A DNA stretch of 6,809 nucleotides, from assembly GCA_017997515.1 (NCBI GenBank), contig JAGOEY010000094.1:1-6809 (forward strand), written 5' to 3'. Both the position numbers and the translations under genes were made by a program. The notes under the pieces are model-generated. The model searched no databases and had not been told where the DNA came from. It saw only the letters and a program-made list of their open reading frames with translations. The DNA is from Burkholderiaceae bacterium (GTDB taxonomy: Bacteria > Pseudomonadota > Gammaproteobacteria > Burkholderiales > Burkholderiaceae). Positions 1 through 6,809 of the stretch are shown one piece after another. Within the stretch, counting starts at the first letter, position 1. Each line of letters starts with the position of its first letter.

Positions 1-265
1 CCGGGTTGCGCGTGAGGCGGAAGGTTTTGACATACCCATCCACCACCTGCTCGTCATGTGCATGGCAGACCACGCCCACCTTGAGCAGGTGCAGCGGGAT
101 GCCAGCTTGAACCAGCTTGCGCTCCAGCGCCCACATCAGCCCGGTGAAGGCGGTCATGGACGGGAACCCATGCGTGAGCGGGCTGGAGATGGCGTTGGCG
201 TTTTGCACCCGCAGGTGGGGGAACACCAGCAGGGCCTGGGCTTGTGTGGGGCGGTTTGCGCTCAT
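1..265 (-). CDS. csy2: Csy2 / Cas5f, N-terminal 88 residues (cut off at left edge)
   Basis: This is the start of the Cas5-family subunit of the type I-F Csy surveillance complex. Cas5f pairs with Csy1 at the foot of the complex and holds the 5' handle of the crRNA. The start is the ATG at 265-263. It overlaps the csy1 TGA (264-262) as ATGA, so translation is probably coupled. Visible I-F Csy2 signatures are the early hydrophobic strand ALLVFPHLRVQNANAISSPL (residues 11-30), then THGFPSMTAFTG (31-42), a helix, then VGVVCH (63-68) and TFRLTRNP (81-88). The frame is open to the window edge. From memory, full-length Csy2 is a little over 300 residues, so about a quarter is present. There is only a weak G-rich stretch upstream and no clear Shine-Dalgarno, consistent with coupling to csy1. 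The family call is confident; the completeness of the gene cannot be judged. Confidence 0.93.
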   Translation of the reverse strand, partial: MSANRPTQAQALLVFPHLRVQNANAISSPLTHGFPSMTAFTGLMWALERKLVQAGIPLHLLKVGVVCHAHDEQVVDGYVKTFRLTRNP

Positions 266-1575
266 GCAGAAACCCCCGCAAACAACCACGAATCATCGGC
301 CAGCAACACCCGACGCCACTCGCGTGCTTCGGCGTCGCCCACCGGCAGCTTGCCTTGCAACTGCGCATTGAGCCAGTTGGCAAAGCGCTTGCCCACTTGC
401 TCGGGCCAATCCATGTGGCTCCACTCTTGTGCAAATACCGTTTCGCCGGTGAGTTCTGCACGCCCCGGGTCTAGCCAGAGTTTCTCGGGCGGTGCCAATT
501 TTTCGTAGCGTTCATCTTGACTCCAGCCCGCAGGCTGCGACTGCAACTCGCCGGCATGAATGACGACCTCATCCACCAGATTGTCCAGAAAGTCATCCAC
601 CTGCTGGCGGGTGTGGCGGTTGGGTTCTGGGTCGGTCAGCAAGAACGCCAGGAAGGCTTTGACGGTTTTGCGGACGGCAGGCCGGGCCCCGAAGGCACGG
701 TCAAACACCGAGTTGGAGTGGATGGGTAGATAGCGCTGACCGGTCTGCCAAGCGGGCGGCGGCAGCGAAGCCAGCAGGTAGTTGGTGCCGCCACGTTCGC
801 TGTTGAGCTGCGAGATGTTTTGGGGTTTTGTCCCCCCCATTTTCTGCACAGCCAGACCCCGGTACTCGTGGTAAGCACCGTCATGCACCTTTCCCTCTCG
901 CCGCGCCTGGCGGGCTGCCTTGTTGGCCTCGCCAAACCGGGCTTCCTGCAAGGGGGCGTACACCGCATGCGCCAGGGATGTGGCGTACAGCGGTGCCAGC
1001 AGGTGGTAGGCCGCATCGTCACACGGGTCACTGCCCACCAACCAATACAACTGCTTGGCACGCACGTGCGAGCTGGCTCCGCCTTCGCGGGCCAGGGTGA
1101 GGCCCACAAATGCGTCGCGCAAGGCCTGCGCCTGCTGCGGGTCGGTGCTCAGCGCCTGCAGTGCGTCGGGCTGGCTTGTCTGCAAAGCGGCCAGCAGATT
1201 GACACCGGCCACCTCCAGCTTGAGCAGCTTGTACACATCCAGCGCGGCGGCATTGCCCACCACATCGGGCATGAGTTTGGCGCCCAAGGCATGGCTGCCC
1301 AGTTCGGCAAGCGGTGCCAGTGTGGCGGGCTGCACATACAGATTGGTGCCGCGTGCATCAGGGTGGATGGGCTTGAGCGAATGCGTGACGGCCTGGATCT
1401 GCTGAACCCGTTTGGCTGCGTTTTGCAGCCATGTGTCACGCTGGTGTTGTGCGATCAGCTCTGCCCGTTGGGCGTTTTCATCGGGCTTGAGTTTGTCGAG
1501 CTTGGCTTGCAATCGCTCCTGGATAAATATCGGAATCACGTCATTCCAACGCAGACGCTGTTCAACAGATGGCAT
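262..1575 (-). CDS. csy1: Csy1 / Cas8f, large subunit of the type I-F Csy complex
   Basis: This is a 437-residue Cas8f, close to the roughly 434 residues of the Pseudomonas aeruginosa protein. Csy1 sits at the foot of the crRNA-guided DNA-binding complex and reads the PAM. Family blocks are visible in order: FIQERLQAKLDKLKPDE (17-33), SLKPIHPDARGTNLY (66-80), DVVGNAAALDVYKLL (104-118), YHLLAPLYATSLAHAVY (190-206), the GGTKPQNISQLNSERGG block (247-263), and a C-terminal WPEQVGKRFANWLN (390-403). Residues equivalent to the P. aeruginosa PAM contacts N111, K247 and N250 (numbering from memory) are present as N108, K250 and N253, predicting CC PAM recognition. The start ATG (1575-1573) is preceded by a strong GGAGG at 5-nt spacing. 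It is the first gene of the csy operon, overlaps csy2 by 4 nt, and is transcribed divergently from higBA. No frameshift is seen. Confidence 0.97.
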   Translation of the reverse strand: MPSVEQRLRWNDVIPIFIQERLQAKLDKLKPDENAQRAELIAQHQRDTWLQNAAKRVQQIQAVTHSLKPIHPDARGTNLYVQPATLAPLAELGSHALGAKLMPDVVGNAAALDVYKLLKLEVAGVNLLAALQTSQPDALQALSTDPQQAQALRDAFVGLTLAREGGASSHVRAKQLYWLVGSDPCDDAAYHLLAPLYATSLAHAVYAPLQEARFGEANKAARQARREGKVHDGAYHEYRGLAVQKMGGTKPQNISQLNSERGGTNYLLASLPPPAWQTGQRYLPIHSNSVFDRAFGARPAVRKTVKAFLAFLLTDPEPNRHTRQQVDDFLDNLVDEVVIHAGELQSQPAGWSQDERYEKLAPPEKLWLDPGRAELTGETVFAQEWSHMDWPEQVGKRFANWLNAQLQGKLPVGDAEAREWRRVLLADDSWLFAGVSA

Positions 1576-1618: not shown

Positions 1619-1636
1619 TACCATGATACGTGTAAT
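1602..1636 (-). promoter_or_regulatory. Candidate csy operon promoter
   Basis: The AT-rich stretch upstream of csy1 contains two minus-strand -10-like hexamers: TATAAC (1607-1602) and TAAAAT (1615-1610). Each matches TATAAT at five of six positions. The -35 elements are poor: ATTACA (1636-1631) lies 15 bp from the second, and the region 1625-1631 lies 17-18 bp from the first. Either choice puts the -35/spacer region inside the protospacer-like sequence at 1623-1640. A start near 1595 would give a leader of about 20 nt holding the GGAGG. The exact promoter cannot be decided by eye; its location between 1595 and 1640 is likely because it is the only non-coding space upstream of csy1. Confidence 0.45.
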
Positions 1637-1640
1637 CTTT
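1621..1640 (+). promoter_or_regulatory. CC PAM plus protospacer-like target of the pseudo-crRNA in the csy promoter region
   Basis: CC at 1621-1622 matches the type I-F PAM. Directly after it, from 1623, the plus strand reads ATGATACGTGTAATCT. The pseudo-spacer starting at 1670 reads ATGATCCGTGTGATCT. That is 14 identities in 16 positions, with mismatches only at 6 and 12; position 18 also matches, and beyond that similarity is lost. Positions 6 and 12 are the ones left unpaired in Cascade-type R-loops. Identity begins exactly at the repeat/spacer boundary on one side and exactly after the PAM on the other, which a random duplication would not predict. At the RNA's own locus the flank is AA rather than CC, so it would not target itself. 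The site overlaps the presumed csy1 promoter. Partial pairing is expected to allow binding without Cas2-3 cleavage. Confidence 0.85.
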
Positions 1641-1642
1641 AA

Positions 1643-1669
1643 AATTACTGCTGTAAAGCAGCTCAGCAA
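1643..1669 (+). repeat. Degenerate type I-F CRISPR repeat 1 (pseudo-repeat 5' of the guide)
   Basis: This 27-nt element aligns to the 28-nt I-F repeat (core CACTGCCGTGTAGGCAGCT, as remembered from Pseudomonas and enterobacterial systems) with one base deleted in the loop. The stem is CTGCT (1648-1652) and AGCAG (1657-1661) around a GTAA loop. Compared with the consensus CTGCC/GGCAG stem, the closing pair is changed on both sides, a compensated change. The A19-G20 dinucleotide before the Cas6f/Csy4 cut is kept (1660-1661). After it comes the 8-nt handle CTCAGCAA (1662-1669), one base from CTCAGAAA. The first four bases have decayed. Such decay is typical of pseudo-repeats in crRNA-like regulators. 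Confidence 0.8.
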
Positions 1670-1715
1670 ATGATCCGTGTGATCTATTCATCTCAGTGCA
1701 CTGCCGAGTAGGCAG
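1662..1715 (+). ncRNA. crRNA-like regulatory guide RNA (CreR/CreA-type), predicted mature 54-nt form
   Basis: Cutting both pseudo-repeats at the Cas6f position 3' of the stem gives a 54-nt RNA. It has an 8-nt 5' handle (1662-1669), a 26-nt spacer (1670-1695) and a 20-nt 3' repeat tag with the CTGCC/GGCAG hairpin (1696-1715). A canonical I-F crRNA is 8 + 32 + 20 = 60 nt. The spacer is exactly 6 nt shorter, one Cas7f/Csy3 footprint, so an assembled complex would probably have five rather than six backbone subunits. The spacer's first 18 positions pair with a PAM-flanked site in the csy promoter region (1623-1640, 15 of 18 identities). The predicted role is to guide the Csy complex to autorepress the csy operon, as reported for crRNA-resembling regulators elsewhere. 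It lies divergent from csy1 and upstream of higB. Expression is not shown by sequence alone. Confidence 0.8.
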
Positions 1716-1723
1716 CTTACCGA
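1696..1723 (+). repeat. Type I-F CRISPR-like repeat 2 (3' of the guide)
   Basis: About 22 of 28 positions match the remembered I-F repeat. The core CACTGCCGAGTAGGCAGCT is nearly intact, with a perfect 5-bp stem CTGCC (1701-1705) / GGCAG (1711-1715) and a 5-nt GAGTA loop, the geometry Cas6f/Csy4 recognises. The terminal 8-nt handle has decayed to CTTACCGA (1716-1723). That is acceptable because nothing downstream needs a handle: no third repeat follows at array spacing. The 3' end of this repeat overlaps the palindrome in front of higB, so the guide RNA terminus and the toxin operator are fused. Confidence 0.85.
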
Positions 1724-1743
1724 ATATCGGTAAACGGTATAAA
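1717..1743 (+). promoter_or_regulatory. higBA promoter with palindromic operator
   Basis: A perfect inverted repeat, TTACCGA (1717-1723) / TCGGTAA (1727-1733) with a 3-nt spacer, lies 20 bp before higB and is a natural HigA dimer site. TATAAA (1738-1743) is a good -10. A -35 at 16-bp spacing would be CTTACC (1716-1721), a weak match lying in the left arm of the palindrome, so a bound repressor would block RNA polymerase. The predicted start is near 1750, only about 4 nt before the higB ATG. The left arm overlaps the end of pseudo-repeat 2. Confidence 0.65.
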
Positions 1744-1753
1744 ATCAACTCTT

Positions 1754-2035
1754 ATGGCGATCACCTCCTTTAAATGCCAAGAAACACAGCGCTTGTTTAC
1801 CAGCGGAAAGACCCGCCGATTTGCCAACATCCAGAACGTGGCGGAACGCAAGCTGGTTCAACTGGAGGCGGCGACCAGTCTGGACTTCTTGCGCAGCCCG
1901 CCAGGCAACCGGCTGGAAATGCTGCTCGGGAATCGTCAAGGCCAGCACAGCATCCGCATCAATGACCAATGGCGCATTTGTTTTGTCTGGACGGAAAAAG
2001 GAGCGGCAGACGTGGAAATAGTCGACTACCACTGA
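1754..2035 (+). CDS. higB: HigB-family (RelE-superfamily) mRNA interferase toxin
   Basis: This is a 93-residue protein of the usual HigB length. HigB toxins bind the ribosome and cut mRNA; the partner HigA neutralises them and represses the operon. Family features visible are an N-terminal FKCQET strand (6-11), the helical block KTRRFANIQNVAERKLVQLE (19-38), the L.FLRSPPGNRLE segment (43-55), HSIRINDQWRICF (65-77) with the conserved NDQWRI, and the acidic strand ending VEIVDYH (87-93). R73 and the terminal DYH match the expected catalytic region. The start at 1754 has no Shine-Dalgarno, and the predicted transcription start is about 4 nt upstream, so translation may be leaderless. higA follows 54 nt downstream. 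The frame is intact, so the toxin should be active. Toxin-first gene order is typical of higBA. Confidence 0.93.
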   Translation: MAITSFKCQETQRLFTSGKTRRFANIQNVAERKLVQLEAATSLDFLRSPPGNRLEMLLGNRQGQHSIRINDQWRICFVWTEKGAADVEIVDYH

Positions 2036-2089: not shown

Positions 2090-2401
2090 ATGGTCAAAAA
2101 TGGCATGCGCCCGGTGCATCCCGGGGAAATTCTGCGAGAAGACTTTCTCAAGCCGATGGCGTTGAGTGCAAACGCGTTGGCAAAGCATCTGCATGTACCT
2201 GCTTCGCGCATCAACGACATCGTGCTGGAGCGGCGAGGCATCACGGCCGATACCGCGCTGCGCCTGAGCCGCGCGTTTGGCGGCGACGCGCAGTCTTGGC
2301 TGAATCTGCAAACGGCCTACGACCTGCGAACCGTGGAGCTGAATGCGGCAGTGCAGGCGGAGGTTAATGAAGTCGGCCCTTTGCACTTTTTGCCTGCATA
2401 G
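2090..2401 (+). CDS. higA: HigA-family XRE antitoxin and autorepressor
   Basis: This is a 103-residue HigA/VapI-type helix-turn-helix protein. HigA binds HigB, blocks its activity and represses the operon as a dimer. The N-terminus MRPVHPGEILREDFLKP (6-22) is the hallmark of the family. A helix-turn-helix follows at about 26-50 (LSANALAKHLHVPASR, then INDIVLERRG), then ITADTALRLSRAFGG (51-65) and the QSWLNLQTAYDLR helix (68-80). The start at 2090 is supported by AAGGAG 7 nt upstream; a start at Met6 would lack this. It would bind the palindrome at 1717-1733. Its stop (2399-2401) is only 5 bp from the cas2-3 stop on the other strand, with no obvious terminator between, so transcripts from the two sides probably overlap. 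Confidence 0.94.
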   Translation: MVKNGMRPVHPGEILREDFLKPMALSANALAKHLHVPASRINDIVLERRGITADTALRLSRAFGGDAQSWLNLQTAYDLRTVELNAAVQAEVNEVGPLHFLPA

Positions 2402-2406
2402 TTGAG

Positions 2407-5400
2407 TCAGTGCTGGCGCTTGAAACCCAGCACGGAATGCCAATACCAGCCGTCTTGCGCACTGGGCAGGCTGGCGGTGGTGACCTTTTCAGCGCTGCGC
2501 CGTAGCGACTGGTCTTGCTGCTCGGCCCACTGCTGCAGCGCTGCCAGCAAGTCCAGTTGCATCCAGGGTGTGATGCGCGCCCCTTGCACCGCACTGTCGG
2601 GCACTGGATTAACCAAACTCTGGATGGGCACAAACAGCTTGTCACGCGGGCCTGTACCGTCATCTATCCGGTGCAAGACGAGGTTTTCGCCATCTTCGTC
2701 GGGCAGCCATGCCACATCCACACGCGGCAATGGGTCGTCCCGAAAACGCTGGAACTGCGGCAGCAGACCGGTGAGCCAGAGGCTGCCGGGCGCTTGCCAG
2801 TGCAAGGTCGCATTGCGCGTTACGGGTGTGTACAAACTGGTGCTGGCATCGCGCGGCAGCATGGTGTCGCGCATGCGGGCGTGTTCCAGGTCTACCCATA
2901 AAGTTTTGGGCTGCAGCTTGTCCCGGGGCGCAATGCGGGGGCGGGCATCAATGGCCCCGCCCTCTGCCGCCAATTCGGGCAACAGGTCGGTCAGACTGTG
3001 TGACTGCAAGTGAAAGTGTGTGGCCGAGTCGCGCAGGTCGGTGCGCTTTGCATCTTTGGGCACTTCGACCCGCTTCATTTCAAACCCGGGTTTACAGAAC
3101 ACGGCTTCACCCGTGTTCTTCTGTTCCATGCTGCGCAGGTTGCTGTCCAGCACCACCATGTTGGTGTGCTCCACAGCCCCAAGCCGATGCCGCCGCACGC
3201 GGCCCGCAAGCTGGATCAGTGAGCGCATGGACGACGGCTCCACCACGGCCCAGTCGTAGTCATGGTCGCGCCCCACCTCGGTGACAGGGCTACCCAGAAC
3301 AATGAACAGGTGGTTCTGCTCGGGGTATTTCTCCAACAGCGCACGCACTGTGGGCCGGGTCAGCGCAGGGTCCTTCGCCGCATCCACGGCGTCTTTGGTG
3401 GGCCGCCGGTTGAGCACGGTGTCGAGTTGGTGCTCGATGCCCGAGCGGGTGAGCAGCGGAAACTGCGAGTGGTACACACACAGGTGGATACGGGTGTCCA
3501 CAACTGGTGCGCCGAGGCGGAACATGGCCAGGGCGACATCAAACAGCGGATCGATATTGGCCATACGAACCAAGCCAAAACTCACACGTTTGCCAGTGGC
3601 TTGGTCGATGCTATGGTTTTGCGAATCCTGGTGCAGTTCCCATGAGCGCTGCAGCACGAAATGGGCAAAACTTTCGCGGCGCTCGTCTGGGCCCATGCCA
3701 AGCCAATCGGTGGGCAAGGGAACCAATGCTGCGCGACGGCGCACCTCGGCTTTGGCCAAGGCATCACAACGGTTTTGAACGAAGGATTCATGTGCGGCAC
3801 GGAAGTCCCGGGCGTCTGTGCAGCTGGTGTGGGTTTGCGCAAACTCATCCACCCACAGGCAGCACAGGCTCAGTGGCTCGTCGGGGCGTTCGCTGCGATG
3901 GCGCTGGTAATGTGCCCGCCCATCACGGTAGGCGAGGTACAACCCCTCGACCAGCGCTGGCGGCAAAGTGGCAGACGACAGCAGCACGCGCGACCCCAGC
4001 AGCCCGGCCCAGTGCACCAGCCGGGTGAGCGCAGGCAGGTCGGCCATGTCGAAGTCGTCGGGTTCGTCCAGCACCAGATCCCCCGTCATCAGCCGCAGCA
4101 TGGGCGCGATCTGGCGGCCACCACGCAGGCTTTCCGTCGCGGGCGTGAGGTGGTCGATGGTGCAAACCAACAGCGGTGCGGCCAGTAGTGAACGGGTTTG
4201 TGCGTCTCCGGTCAGTCGCATCAACAAGGGGTGCTGGTCGTTGCCCTCGAACAGCACCTGTCCGCCTTCATCGAGCAAGGCCTGGGCCGATGCCGAGCCG
4301 GTGGCTTCGGCCTGGGCTTCGTAGTAGGTGAACAGTTCACGGCTGGCGGTGCCGCCGACCTTGATGGCCAACTGGTCGTCACCCAGCCCCAGGTCATGCT
4401 GGAAGCTGCGCCCGGTTTGCAGGGTCAGCGTGCGCAGTCCCATGGCGAAGGCGCAGCGCAGGCCCAGCTGAGGGTCGGCCAGCGCGTTCATGATGCGGGC
4501 ATTGCCCAGCGTCTTGCCGCAGCCGGTGGACGCCATATTCACGATGAAAGCCCCTTGCTGGGCAGCGCTGTGGCGCACGCCGGCGGCCAGATCGGCCGCC
4601 TTGTCCTGCCACTGGAAGCGGGCGTTGTCGGTGCGCTTCTTCAAACCCTTGTGGCGTTGCAGCGCAGGCAGGCTACGCACCAGGCTGGTCAAGGCATGGG
4701 TGACGACGCTGGTATGGGCTTGCACACCCAGCAGGTGTTCGTCCAGCGTCTGGTTGAGCACGGTGTCACCCACGGTATTGCGTGTGGTGTTGGCGTACAG
4801 CTTGGCCATGGGTTGCAGATAGGCCGTTCGCTCGGGCACGGGTTGGTCGCGCGGGGCATGGGTGGTGCCAAGGTTCGGCGCAGGCTTTTGCAGGCCGAGG
4901 CTGGAGTAATGGTGGTCGGCCAGCATCAGGCACAACCGCGCAACGTGGGCCACAAACGGGTCTGCAGGCCACAACGCGTCACCCGTGCCGGGTGGCAGGG
5001 CTAGCAGCTTGCGGGCGAAGCGCGACGCCTGCTTGCGCCAGGCCGGGTTGCGCACGGGCAGGCCGTGCGGAAAAACCCAGTAGGTGTCCCGACTCGCGGC
5101 GCTGACGGATTCGCGTGGCTCGTTCCAGTCGGCATTGATTTGCTGCAGCAATCCGTCCAATTGGTCGCGATTCAAGAACTTGGGCTTGGTACCAAAACGC
5201 CGCCATTGCAGTTCACCTTCTTCCAGCGCTTCGTCCGATGCATCGGCCTTGTTCTTCACCGGCTTGCACGGCAAGCGGTGGTGCGTTAACACCAACCAGG
5301 CGATGGCCTGGGCCAGTGGGGGCAGTACAACGAAGGGGTTGTGCTGATGGTCTGCGCCCTTGATGTCCTTTCCGTCACGCAGCAGGCGGCCTGCGGCATG

Positions 5401-5976
5401 GTCCAGCCATAAAGCCTCAAAGGTATCGGCGTGCGTGGCGTCATCGACCGCTGATGCCAGGCGCTGCAACCAGCCCGCGTCGTTGTCGTCCCCCACAAAA
5501 GCCTGGAACAAACGCACCGACACCCATTCATGGCGGTAGTGGTTGCGCTCTCTGATACCGGGGTTGCGCAGGCGGTTCTGAAACGCCTGCGTAGCTTTGC
5601 CCAGGTCGTGCAGCAGGGCCGCCAGCGTGGCCAATGCGCTGATGGCGGGCAGGTGATGCCAGGTGTTTTCGTCTTCCGCGCGCAGCACATTGTTGGCGGT
5701 GAAGTTGGTGGGCACCGCTCCGCTGTCGTTGAACTGCCGCCCGTCCCCCACCACCCACAACAGCTCGCTGTGGTCCAGCCCACGAATCCAGTGGCAGGCC
5801 ACAGCGGTGTTCTTGCGGGCGGTCTTGCGCAGCAGGCGGCGCAGGGTGTCCAAGCCATCTTGCGTGATCGGTGTTTGCCAGGTGCGGTCACCGCGCCGCT
5901 CGGCGAACTGGTCGAGGATGCGGCGGGTTTCGGTAAGGGCGCGTTTGCTGCATTGGGAGATCAGCAGCACATTCAT
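2407..5976 (-). CDS. cas3: Cas2-3 fusion: type I-F adaptation subunit joined to HD nuclease-helicase
   Basis: This 1189-residue protein degrades targets marked by the Csy complex and, with Cas1, takes part in spacer acquisition. Residues 1-95 are the Cas2 domain characteristic of type I-F (MNVLLISQCSKRALTETRRI at the start). The HD nuclease follows: LLHDLGKA with H123-D124, YRHEWVS with H149, and THHRLP with H232-H233. The SF2 helicase shows MASTGCGKT (481-489, K488), DEPD (637-640), SSAT (667-670), a motif V-like VTEVGRDHDYDW (898-909) and motif VI QLAGRVRRHR (922-931). A C-terminal domain ends at GWYWHSVLGFKRQH. The start ATG (5976-5974) overlaps the cas1 TGA as ATGA; an open extension 40 codons upstream is Arg-rich shadow inside cas1. 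It is about 110 residues longer than the P. aeruginosa protein as I remember it. All motifs are intact. Confidence 0.97.
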   Translation of the reverse strand: MNVLLISQCSKRALTETRRILDQFAERRGDRTWQTPITQDGLDTLRRLLRKTARKNTAVACHWIRGLDHSELLWVVGDGRQFNDSGAVPTNFTANNVLRAEDENTWHHLPAISALATLAALLHDLGKATQAFQNRLRNPGIRERNHYRHEWVSVRLFQAFVGDDNDAGWLQRLASAVDDATHADTFEALWLDHAAGRLLRDGKDIKGADHQHNPFVVLPPLAQAIAWLVLTHHRLPCKPVKNKADASDEALEEGELQWRRFGTKPKFLNRDQLDGLLQQINADWNEPRESVSAASRDTYWVFPHGLPVRNPAWRKQASRFARKLLALPPGTGDALWPADPFVAHVARLCLMLADHHYSSLGLQKPAPNLGTTHAPRDQPVPERTAYLQPMAKLYANTTRNTVGDTVLNQTLDEHLLGVQAHTSVVTHALTSLVRSLPALQRHKGLKKRTDNARFQWQDKAADLAAGVRHSAAQQGAFIVNMASTGCGKTLGNARIMNALADPQLGLRCAFAMGLRTLTLQTGRSFQHDLGLGDDQLAIKVGGTASRELFTYYEAQAEATGSASAQALLDEGGQVLFEGNDQHPLLMRLTGDAQTRSLLAAPLLVCTIDHLTPATESLRGGRQIAPMLRLMTGDLVLDEPDDFDMADLPALTRLVHWAGLLGSRVLLSSATLPPALVEGLYLAYRDGRAHYQRHRSERPDEPLSLCCLWVDEFAQTHTSCTDARDFRAAHESFVQNRCDALAKAEVRRRAALVPLPTDWLGMGPDERRESFAHFVLQRSWELHQDSQNHSIDQATGKRVSFGLVRMANIDPLFDVALAMFRLGAPVVDTRIHLCVYHSQFPLLTRSGIEHQLDTVLNRRPTKDAVDAAKDPALTRPTVRALLEKYPEQNHLFIVLGSPVTEVGRDHDYDWAVVEPSSMRSLIQLAGRVRRHRLGAVEHTNMVVLDSNLRSMEQKNTGEAVFCKPGFEMKRVEVPKDAKRTDLRDSATHFHLQSHSLTDLLPELAAEGGAIDARPRIAPRDKLQPKTLWVDLEHARMRDTMLPRDASTSLYTPVTRNATLHWQAPGSLWLTGLLPQFQRFRDDPLPRVDVAWLPDEDGENLVLHRIDDGTGPRDKLFVPIQSLVNPVPDSAVQGARITPWMQLDLLAALQQWAEQQDQSLRRSAEKVTTASLPSAQDGWYWHSVLGFKRQH

Positions 5977-6809
5977 GGCGTGGGCGGCTCTTGCACGGCG
6001 TTGACTTGAGCCTGACGGCCCAGTTGCTGGGCGACGGTTTGCAAGGTGTCGATCATGAAGTCCAGGGCTTCGCCGCGGGTCAGGCTTTCGATACAAGCGC
6101 TGCGGAAGTCTTGCTCAGAATCGCCGCGCTGCGCCGAGACAAACGCCTGCGGCAGGATGTGGGCGTCTTTCACCAGATCGGCTACGTCGAACACCAGGCC
6201 ACCCCGCCGCGTCTTGCCGTGCAGAACGGCCAAACCATGCGGGAGGCCCAACACCCAGGTGGCAGTGGCGCCCAAGCCGTAAGCCAGGTAGTTGCCATGG
6301 TCAAGGAATTGATTGGCAGGATCACCACCGCTGCCTCGCTTGGCGCGCGTGAAGTCGCCATATTGCGAAGCACGGGCGGCAAGCATGTACAGGTGTTTGG
6401 TCAGGCGTGCCTCTTCCGTGAGCAGCGCCGTATTGTTTGGAGCAGCAGCCACGTTGCGTGCCGAGGCATCGAGGGCTTGCTGCAGTGTGGCTGCATCCAC
6501 AGTAAAACCCGCCGCGCGTAATGCCTTGCTGCCCACCCAGTGCTGGCGAATGCGTTGCAAGCGTGCCTGCTGAAAAGCCTTGGCGGCGGCCAGGCGCAAA
6601 CCATCGTCAAACCAGAATCGCACCCAGTGCTGCAGGTATTCGGTGGGTCGGTACTCACTTTGGGGCGAGAACCAGGCGACCTCTACATCCACCTCGTTGG
6701 CGCTGTACAGCGGGGTTCCCCCACCGCCACAGAAACCGACCAGCACACCCGCTTTGGCCAGCTCCCGCATCGCCGCCTGCGTGACCGAGGTGCCTGTACC
6801 CAGCAATAC
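5973..6809 (-). CDS. cas1: Cas1, type I-F integrase (N-terminus beyond right edge)
   Basis: Cas1 integrates new spacers, in I-F as a complex with Cas2-3. The visible part is the C-terminal 278 codons; about 57 N-terminal residues lie outside, judging from P. aeruginosa Cas1. The TTG at 6806-6804 is an internal Leu (frame reads VLLGTGTS), not a start. Counting that Leu as 1, the metal ligands are E132 in LLTEEARL, H196 in LAVLHGKTRRGG, and D207/D210 in VFDVADLVKD. With an offset of 58 these match E190, H254, D265 and D268 of the P. aeruginosa enzyme. Other I-F blocks are VLVGFCGGGGTPLYSANEVD (21-40) and RAKRGSGGDPANQFLDHGN (154-172). The TGA (5975-5973) overlaps the cas2-3 start by 4 nt, so the two are co-translated. 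Confidence 0.97.
   Translation of the reverse strand, partial: VLLGTGTSVTQAAMRELAKAGVLVGFCGGGGTPLYSANEVDVEVAWFSPQSEYRPTEYLQHWVRFWFDDGLRLAAAKAFQQARLQRIRQHWVGSKALRAAGFTVDAATLQQALDASARNVAAAPNNTALLTEEARLTKHLYMLAARASQYGDFTRAKRGSGGDPANQFLDHGNYLAYGLGATATWVLGLPHGLAVLHGKTRRGGLVFDVADLVKDAHILPQAFVSAQRGDSEQDFRSACIESLTRGEALDFMIDTLQTVAQQLGRQAQVNAVQEPPTP

Follow-up and report, generated by a model that had tools for sequence, protein, structure and literature searches.

A mini-CRISPR beside csy1 and higBA as a predicted CreR-like autorepressor of a type I-F CRISPR-Cas system

What could a degenerate CRISPR of two repeats be guiding from between a cas gene and a toxin gene, when part of its spacer is written a second time next to it? 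The stretch of DNA analysed here (the window, 6,809 nucleotides) raises this question. Its 6.8 kb are filled by a partial type I-F CRISPR-Cas locus, with csy2-4 and the main array lying beyond (Table 1). Between cas2-3 and csy1, both on the minus strand, a HigB toxin gene is followed on the plus strand by a HigA antitoxin gene, the arrangement of a type II HigBA module. The 178 bp between csy1 (start 1575) and higB (start 1754) hold a mini-CRISPR, in which two degenerate I-F repeats (psi-R1 and psi-R2) flank a 26-nt guide. We consider it very likely that this mini-array is a type I-F CreR-like guide through which the Csy complex would repress the csy operon.

Table 1 Features of the window, with the evidence for each
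Feature	Position	Strand	Evidence or remark
csy1 (cas8f), first gene of the csy operon	262..1575	-	PF09611 and TIGR02564
CC, type I-F PAM of the target	1621..1622	+	sequence; CC is the sole enriched of 16 dinucleotides across 126 regions
Guide target (protospacer strand)	1623..1640	+	agreement with the guide at 1-5, 7-11, 13-16 and 18
TATCAT, likely csy operon -10 box inside the target seed	1623..1628	-	TANNNT here in 13/15 layout loci
First pseudo-repeat (psi-R1)	1642..1669	+	stem CTGCT-GTAA-AGCAG; 5' handle CTCAGCAA at 1662-1669
Guide (psi-spacer), 26 nt = 32 minus 6	1670..1695	+	
Second pseudo-repeat (psi-R2)	1696..1723	+	Rfam CRISPR-DR4 match below gathering score
Dyad TTACCGA-ATA-TCGGTAA, likely HigA operator	1717..1733		sequence; overlaps the end of psi-R2
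higB, RelE-like toxin	1754..2035	+	PF05015, E 4.1e-16
higA, antitoxin	2090..2401	+	TIGR02607, E 1.5e-33
cas2-3 open frame	2407..6096	-	TIGR02562; family match from residue 41
cas1	5973..6806	-	TIGR03637; cut by the window end

The csy1 cluster of the window (37 member sequences) is present in 635 metagenome contigs, and among the best 80 csy1 relatives retained from genome contigs the closest shares 68% identity with it; the lineage appears to be common but unsequenced. Sixteen plasmid records carry a csy1 relative, the best at 62.6% identity, and 50 match the higBA stretch, each in parts only.

The first 16 bases of the guide (1670-1685, ATGATCCGTGTGATCT) and the target (1623-1638, ATGATACGTGTAATCT) are identical at 14 positions and differ at 6 and 12 only; position 17 is a mismatch and 18 a match. 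A sequence-only reading of this DNA had claimed both this identity and a start of the match right after CC and right after the repeat handle, and direct inspection bears it out on both counts (CC at 1621-1622, handle at 1662-1669). Searching the window for CC and the 16-nt guide with at most 3 mismatches returned the target (2 mismatches) and the guide's own site only, against a mean of 0.01 sites expected from 200 shuffles. The guide's own site is preceded by AA, not CC, so the guide should not target its own gene. The target sits 47 nt before the csy1 start.

The flanking repeats are worn. Against Rfam CRISPR-DR4, psi-R2 scores 24.8 bits (E 0.0019; gathering score 35), psi-R1 finds no Rfam match up to E 1, and the psi-R1 fold is modest (-6.7 kcal/mol, z -0.98). 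In an Rfam search of the window and five other loci at the gathering score, the best 150 of 205 matches were CRISPR-DR4 repeats and all lay outside the window. With its last seven bases, psi-R2 supplies one arm of the dyad listed in Table 1; since this likely HigA operator overwrites the psi-R2 handle, repeat and toxin-antitoxin operator appear to be fused. Similar dyads are present in HigB-bearing relatives.

We followed the match into related loci. Of 212 csy1 relatives found among genome contigs the best 80 were kept; together with whole-genome searches (1,541 genomes counted, in overlapping sets) they gave 141 loci besides the window, and once duplicates were removed, 126 unique csy1 upstream regions remained. 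The scan of each region covered both strands between csy1 and the end of cas2-3 (or 1,500 bp). Candidates were hairpins with a handle like CTNAGAAA directly behind them; the 16 bases after the handle served as the guide, which was aligned to all CC-flanked sites within its own region. With a handle fit of 6 or 7 of 7, 59 of 100 candidates had a CC-flanked site differing at no more than 4 of 16 positions, versus a mean of 0.475 and a maximum of 3 for letter-shuffled guides (200 rounds). Replacing CC by any of the 15 other dinucleotides left 0-4 sites each, and shifting the guide register by 1-6 bases left 0-3.

Wider limits (handle of at least 5/7, at most 5 mismatches) gave 66 distinct sites. 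We kept the 59 pairs with guide and target on the strand opposite csy1 and the site no more than 450 nt from csy1; the seven left out are second candidates on the other strand in L003, L006 and L029, and the sites of L045, L057, L112 and L136. The L136 pair looks genuine (2 mismatches), yet lies 535 nt from csy1. No site was found by the wider scan in 62 of the 126 regions, and visual inspection revealed an array in four of these (L007, L026, L043 and L081). Of the 59 pairs, 18 have the target no farther than 80 nt from csy1 (the near layout), and in 11 of these it abuts the first repeat, as in the window. With L043 and L081, found by eye because their stems are imperfect, the window-layout pairs number 13; L007 (6/16 mismatches) and L026 (TC for CC, five mismatches) belong to the layout in degenerate form.

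Across these 13 pairs, guide and target share the same base at 176 of 182 unflipped positions; permuting the partners 20,000 times gave 112.4 on average and never more than 161. Six dissimilar pairs agree at 81 of 84, a value reached in 26 of 20,000 permutations, which is about the share of the true pairing among the 720 orders of six pairs. Mismatches fall at exactly 6 and 12 in 8 of the 13; the L061 pair has them at 7 and 12. In L003 all 16 positions match, including 6 and 12, unlike in the other 12 pairs. The earlier reading had named such covariation as decisive, and independent divergence of guide and target, also in the seed, as what would refute it. Guides and targets change together across the relatives; no independent divergence occurred, and both CC and the register set by the 8-nt handle are conserved. 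Since the match persists in 12 related loci despite differing letters, the CRISPR complex likely lowers its own production.

In Cascade-type R-loops, bases are flipped out at every sixth position, and the sequence-only reading had taken the mismatches at 6 and 12 to be the tolerated ones. The 59 pairs agree with it: 51 are mismatched at position 6, 43 at 12 and 45 at 18, while positions 1-5 have 0, 1, 1, 0 and 0 mismatches (2/295) and positions 7-11 have 2, 5, 6, 4 and 5 (22/295). Further along, mismatches number 4, 13, 11, 14 and 18 at positions 13-17, then 24 at 19 and 33 at 20. Among 20 dissimilar targets the counts are 18 at 6, 13 at 12 and 15 at 18, with 1 mismatch in 100 at positions 1-5. 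The rates at 6, 12 and 18 equal those of two independent columns, which implies that these bases are free, not avoided; a preference for mismatches beyond free drift was considered and rejected on the same grounds. Base composition is skewed here as well. A or T occupies 156 of 177 target bases at 6, 12 and 18 versus 508 of 826 elsewhere; in the guides the figures are 70 of 177 versus 483 of 826. Weak DNA pairs where the RNA cannot pay for melting would explain the bias of the flipped target bases; promoter boxes could be an alternative cause.

Where would binding at this site act? In 13 of the 15 window-layout loci, the first six bases of the target, taken in the csy1 direction, spell TANNNT, the pattern expected of a -10 box, and in L022 a candidate promoter ATGACA-17-TATCAT places its -10 on the seed. 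A strict sigma-70 scan of the window found no csy1-direction promoter, and the same scan found one in 4 of the 18 near loci versus 1.7 expected. The claim that the site lies in the csy promoter stands as far as its place, its -10-like TATCAT and the relatives go, and falls short at the strict scan of the window. In the array direction, 5 of 11 window-layout loci have a weak promoter candidate (1.2 expected), and in L003 and L006 its -10 (CATGAT) overlaps PAM and seed. Together, the csy1-side TANNNT and the array-side candidates make a two-way -10 element possible.

The window layout also recurs with HigBA, an aspect absent from the earlier reading. HigB matches fall in the gap of 12 unique regions, and pairing is kept in 11 of them, the exception being L026. 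Ten of the 11 other loci have a HigB with 76-88% identity to that of the window. HigB of L061 matches in two pieces (59% and 76% identity) that overlap in different frames, so that this gene looks frameshifted. The csy1 genes of the HigB loci are 63-66% identical to window csy1 in nine cases, 45% in L114 and 51% in L061; the L114 genome has one in-frame TGA within the csy1 match. In L022 the place is taken by a BrnT toxin gene (PF04365, E 1.7e-23) and a CopG-like gene below the family cut-off, and L008 keeps the window layout with no match to HigB or HigA. Other toxin-antitoxin families seen in the same gap are HicB (L052), MNT nucleotidyltransferase (L053, L098), HepT (L046), PaaA2-like (L137) and, again in L022, BrnT.

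This neighbourhood invites a CrePA-like reading, in which binding at 1621-1640 mainly curbs the mini-array itself and read-through into higBA, so that loss of the complex would raise HigB. The target does lie upstream of the array in the array's own direction, a weak plus-strand promoter (TTACCA-16-TAAAAT, 1618-1645) overlaps it, and HigB genes recur next to the layout. However, shuffled sequences yield promoters as good as this one (0.9 expected). Beyond psi-R2, higBA also has what are likely its own promoter and operator, to which the guide does not pair, and L008 retains the layout without a HigB or HigA match. We hold this reading to be improbable.

Still less probable is a CreTA module, where the guide would silence CreT, a small toxic RNA whose gene would lie between target and csy1. 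Slot, repeats and CC are common with the Acinetobacter I-F creTA as far as the accessible text describes it (PMC10097628), and the gap of many relatives does hold CreTA-like layouts, which the earlier reading had not mentioned: the target is farther from csy1 in 41 of the 59 pairs (the far layout), 36 of them at 221-303 nt, leaving room for a toxic RNA. In the window, by contrast, only 47 nt separate target and csy1; this stretch holds the csy1 leader, and the 33-bp mini-ORF is absent from it. Across the 13 window-layout pairs the distance is 18-47 nt, a leader too short for another gene.

The far layout merits description in its own right. Its guide and CC target, some 220-300 nt upstream of csy1, resemble I-F CreTA well outside Acinetobacter (e.g. 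L005, L009, L017, L031, L012, L021), and a promoter-like pair stands close to the target in 18 of 41 far loci (3.4 expected). Several show a G+C-rich stem-loop just downstream of the target, followed by letters like CAACNNCG; these shared stem-loops are possibly a family of toxic RNAs. On a csy1 tree (125 rows, quick method, SH-aLRT only) the 16 window-layout rows need 11 changes, against 15.3 for shuffled labels, so the label is more clustered than chance. At least 8 of the 11 changes, gains and losses taken together, are forced by well-supported branches. In each of the sister pairs L026/L032 and L081/L004, one partner shows the window layout and the other the second layout.

Chance, or a dying self-matching spacer, would suit the degenerate repeats and the decayed look of L026 and L007 but is already contradicted by the controls and the covariation and merits next to no weight, and as little credit is due to tandem operators (two similar 16-mers bound by a DNA-binding protein), for although two copies stand 47 bp apart next to a promoter, one begins exactly after a repeat handle and the other after CC, the mismatches have a 6-nt period, and the letters vary between loci while both copies agree.

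Guide length follows a comparable step. In 57 of the 59 pairs (a second repeat was not found in two), pseudo-guides measure 12-32 nt and cluster at 12-15, 18-21, 24-27 and 30-32; division by 6 leaves a remainder of 4 or 5 in none of the 57. The best period over these 57 guides, related rows included, is 6.1, a fit that uniform lengths never equalled in 5,000 rounds. Among 26 thinned clusters, period 6 has a strength of 0.62 and period 7 of 0.59; as 7 is nearly as good there, we state the step as about 6 nt. Such steps would fit whole Csy3 units, the 26 nt of the window being one unit below 32. Intact canonical arrays in which 32 nt is the commonest spacer length are present in 7 of the 15 window-layout loci, several of the remaining loci being available as short sequence pieces.

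We now propose how autorepression of the csy operon would proceed. The mini-array (1642-1723) would yield a short crRNA-like guide, presumably through Csy4 processing, and the complex assembled on these 26 nt would be one Csy3 unit shorter than usual. The guide would lead it to the CC-flanked site before csy1, where the R-loop would occlude the -10 box inside the target and block csy transcription. As pairing stops at about position 17, binding is not expected to trigger cleavage by Cas2-3. Withdrawal of the complex by ordinary crRNAs or by anti-CRISPR proteins would release csy. HigBA, its likely operator fused to psi-R2, may act as the addiction module of the locus.

A broader picture is more tentative, and we would put it at somewhat under even chances when taken as a whole: the cas3-csy1 gap of type I-F may be a swap slot for guide-controlled modules, with the mini-array flipping between CreTA and CreR; HigBA (once BrnT) would take the addiction role in the CreR form; one R-loop over a two-way -10 would shut both the csy operon and the guide; and guides would be trimmed to lengths that correspond to whole Csy3 units, about 6 nt each.

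Should the prediction hold, guide-directed cas autorepression would extend to type I-F, beyond the I-B, I-E and V-A systems named in the accessible text (PMC13131331), and would be coupled to protein toxin-antitoxin modules. The natural pairs further offer an evolutionary readout of the R-loop, in which 6, 12 and 18 are free, 1-5 and 7-11 are conserved, pairing weakens beyond about 17 and guide length steps by about 6 nt. These pairing and length patterns would serve as testable rules for silencing without cutting. Within the openly accessible literature, subscription papers and supplements aside, we found no type I-F CreR. Likely new are the I-F form of CreR, the association of that form with HigBA (in one locus BrnT) and the stepping of guide lengths by about 6 nt, repression itself being predicted from sequence.

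The closest known system, as the accessible parts of the cited papers present it, is CreR (Liu et al. 2023, Cell Host Microbe), reported for types I-B, I-E and V-A (PMC13131331). There, the guide of a mini-CRISPR is partly complementary to the cas promoter and is thought to set the Cas level and to sense anti-CRISPRs (PMC13131331, PMC12948488, PMC12737573). The window likewise has a crRNA-like mini-CRISPR unit beside cas genes (psi-R1, the 26-nt guide, psi-R2) and limited, PAM-backed complementarity 47 nt before csy1 that covaries, in what is probably a promoter. It differs from the CreR described there in being type I-F, in occupying the cas3-csy1 gap and in its fusion to a type II toxin-antitoxin module. 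CreR is, in the wording available, generally not coupled with toxin genes (PMC12737573); given that "generally", HigBA next to the array marks a variant, not an exclusion.

According to the text consulted, the Acinetobacter I-F CreA represses via a CC-flanked site mismatched at 6, 11 and 18 (PMC10097628). The I-F CreTA so described and the relatives studied here have in common the cas3-csy1 slot, two pseudo-repeats, the CC PAM, about 17 nt of pairing and mismatches at 6 and 18, but its target controls a toxic RNA, whereas that of the window lies in the csy1 leader or promoter. CrePA, from what its source relates, joins the KilA-N toxin CreP with a CreA RNA (PMC12737573). Guide-directed repression next to a protein toxin, predicted in the window, is alike; the window target, however, is at csy1 and not at a toxin promoter, and the toxin is HigB with its own antitoxin.

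A last parallel comes from Cas9, whose autorepression guide derives from tracrRNA. As the accessible account has it, Cas9 represses its own operon via a natural single guide (PMC13131331). Repression of the effector's own operon by short pairing, with relief by anti-CRISPRs, is the feature shared, as a prediction for the window. The difference is that Cas9 is a class 2 effector, whereas the guide of the window comes from a mini-array.
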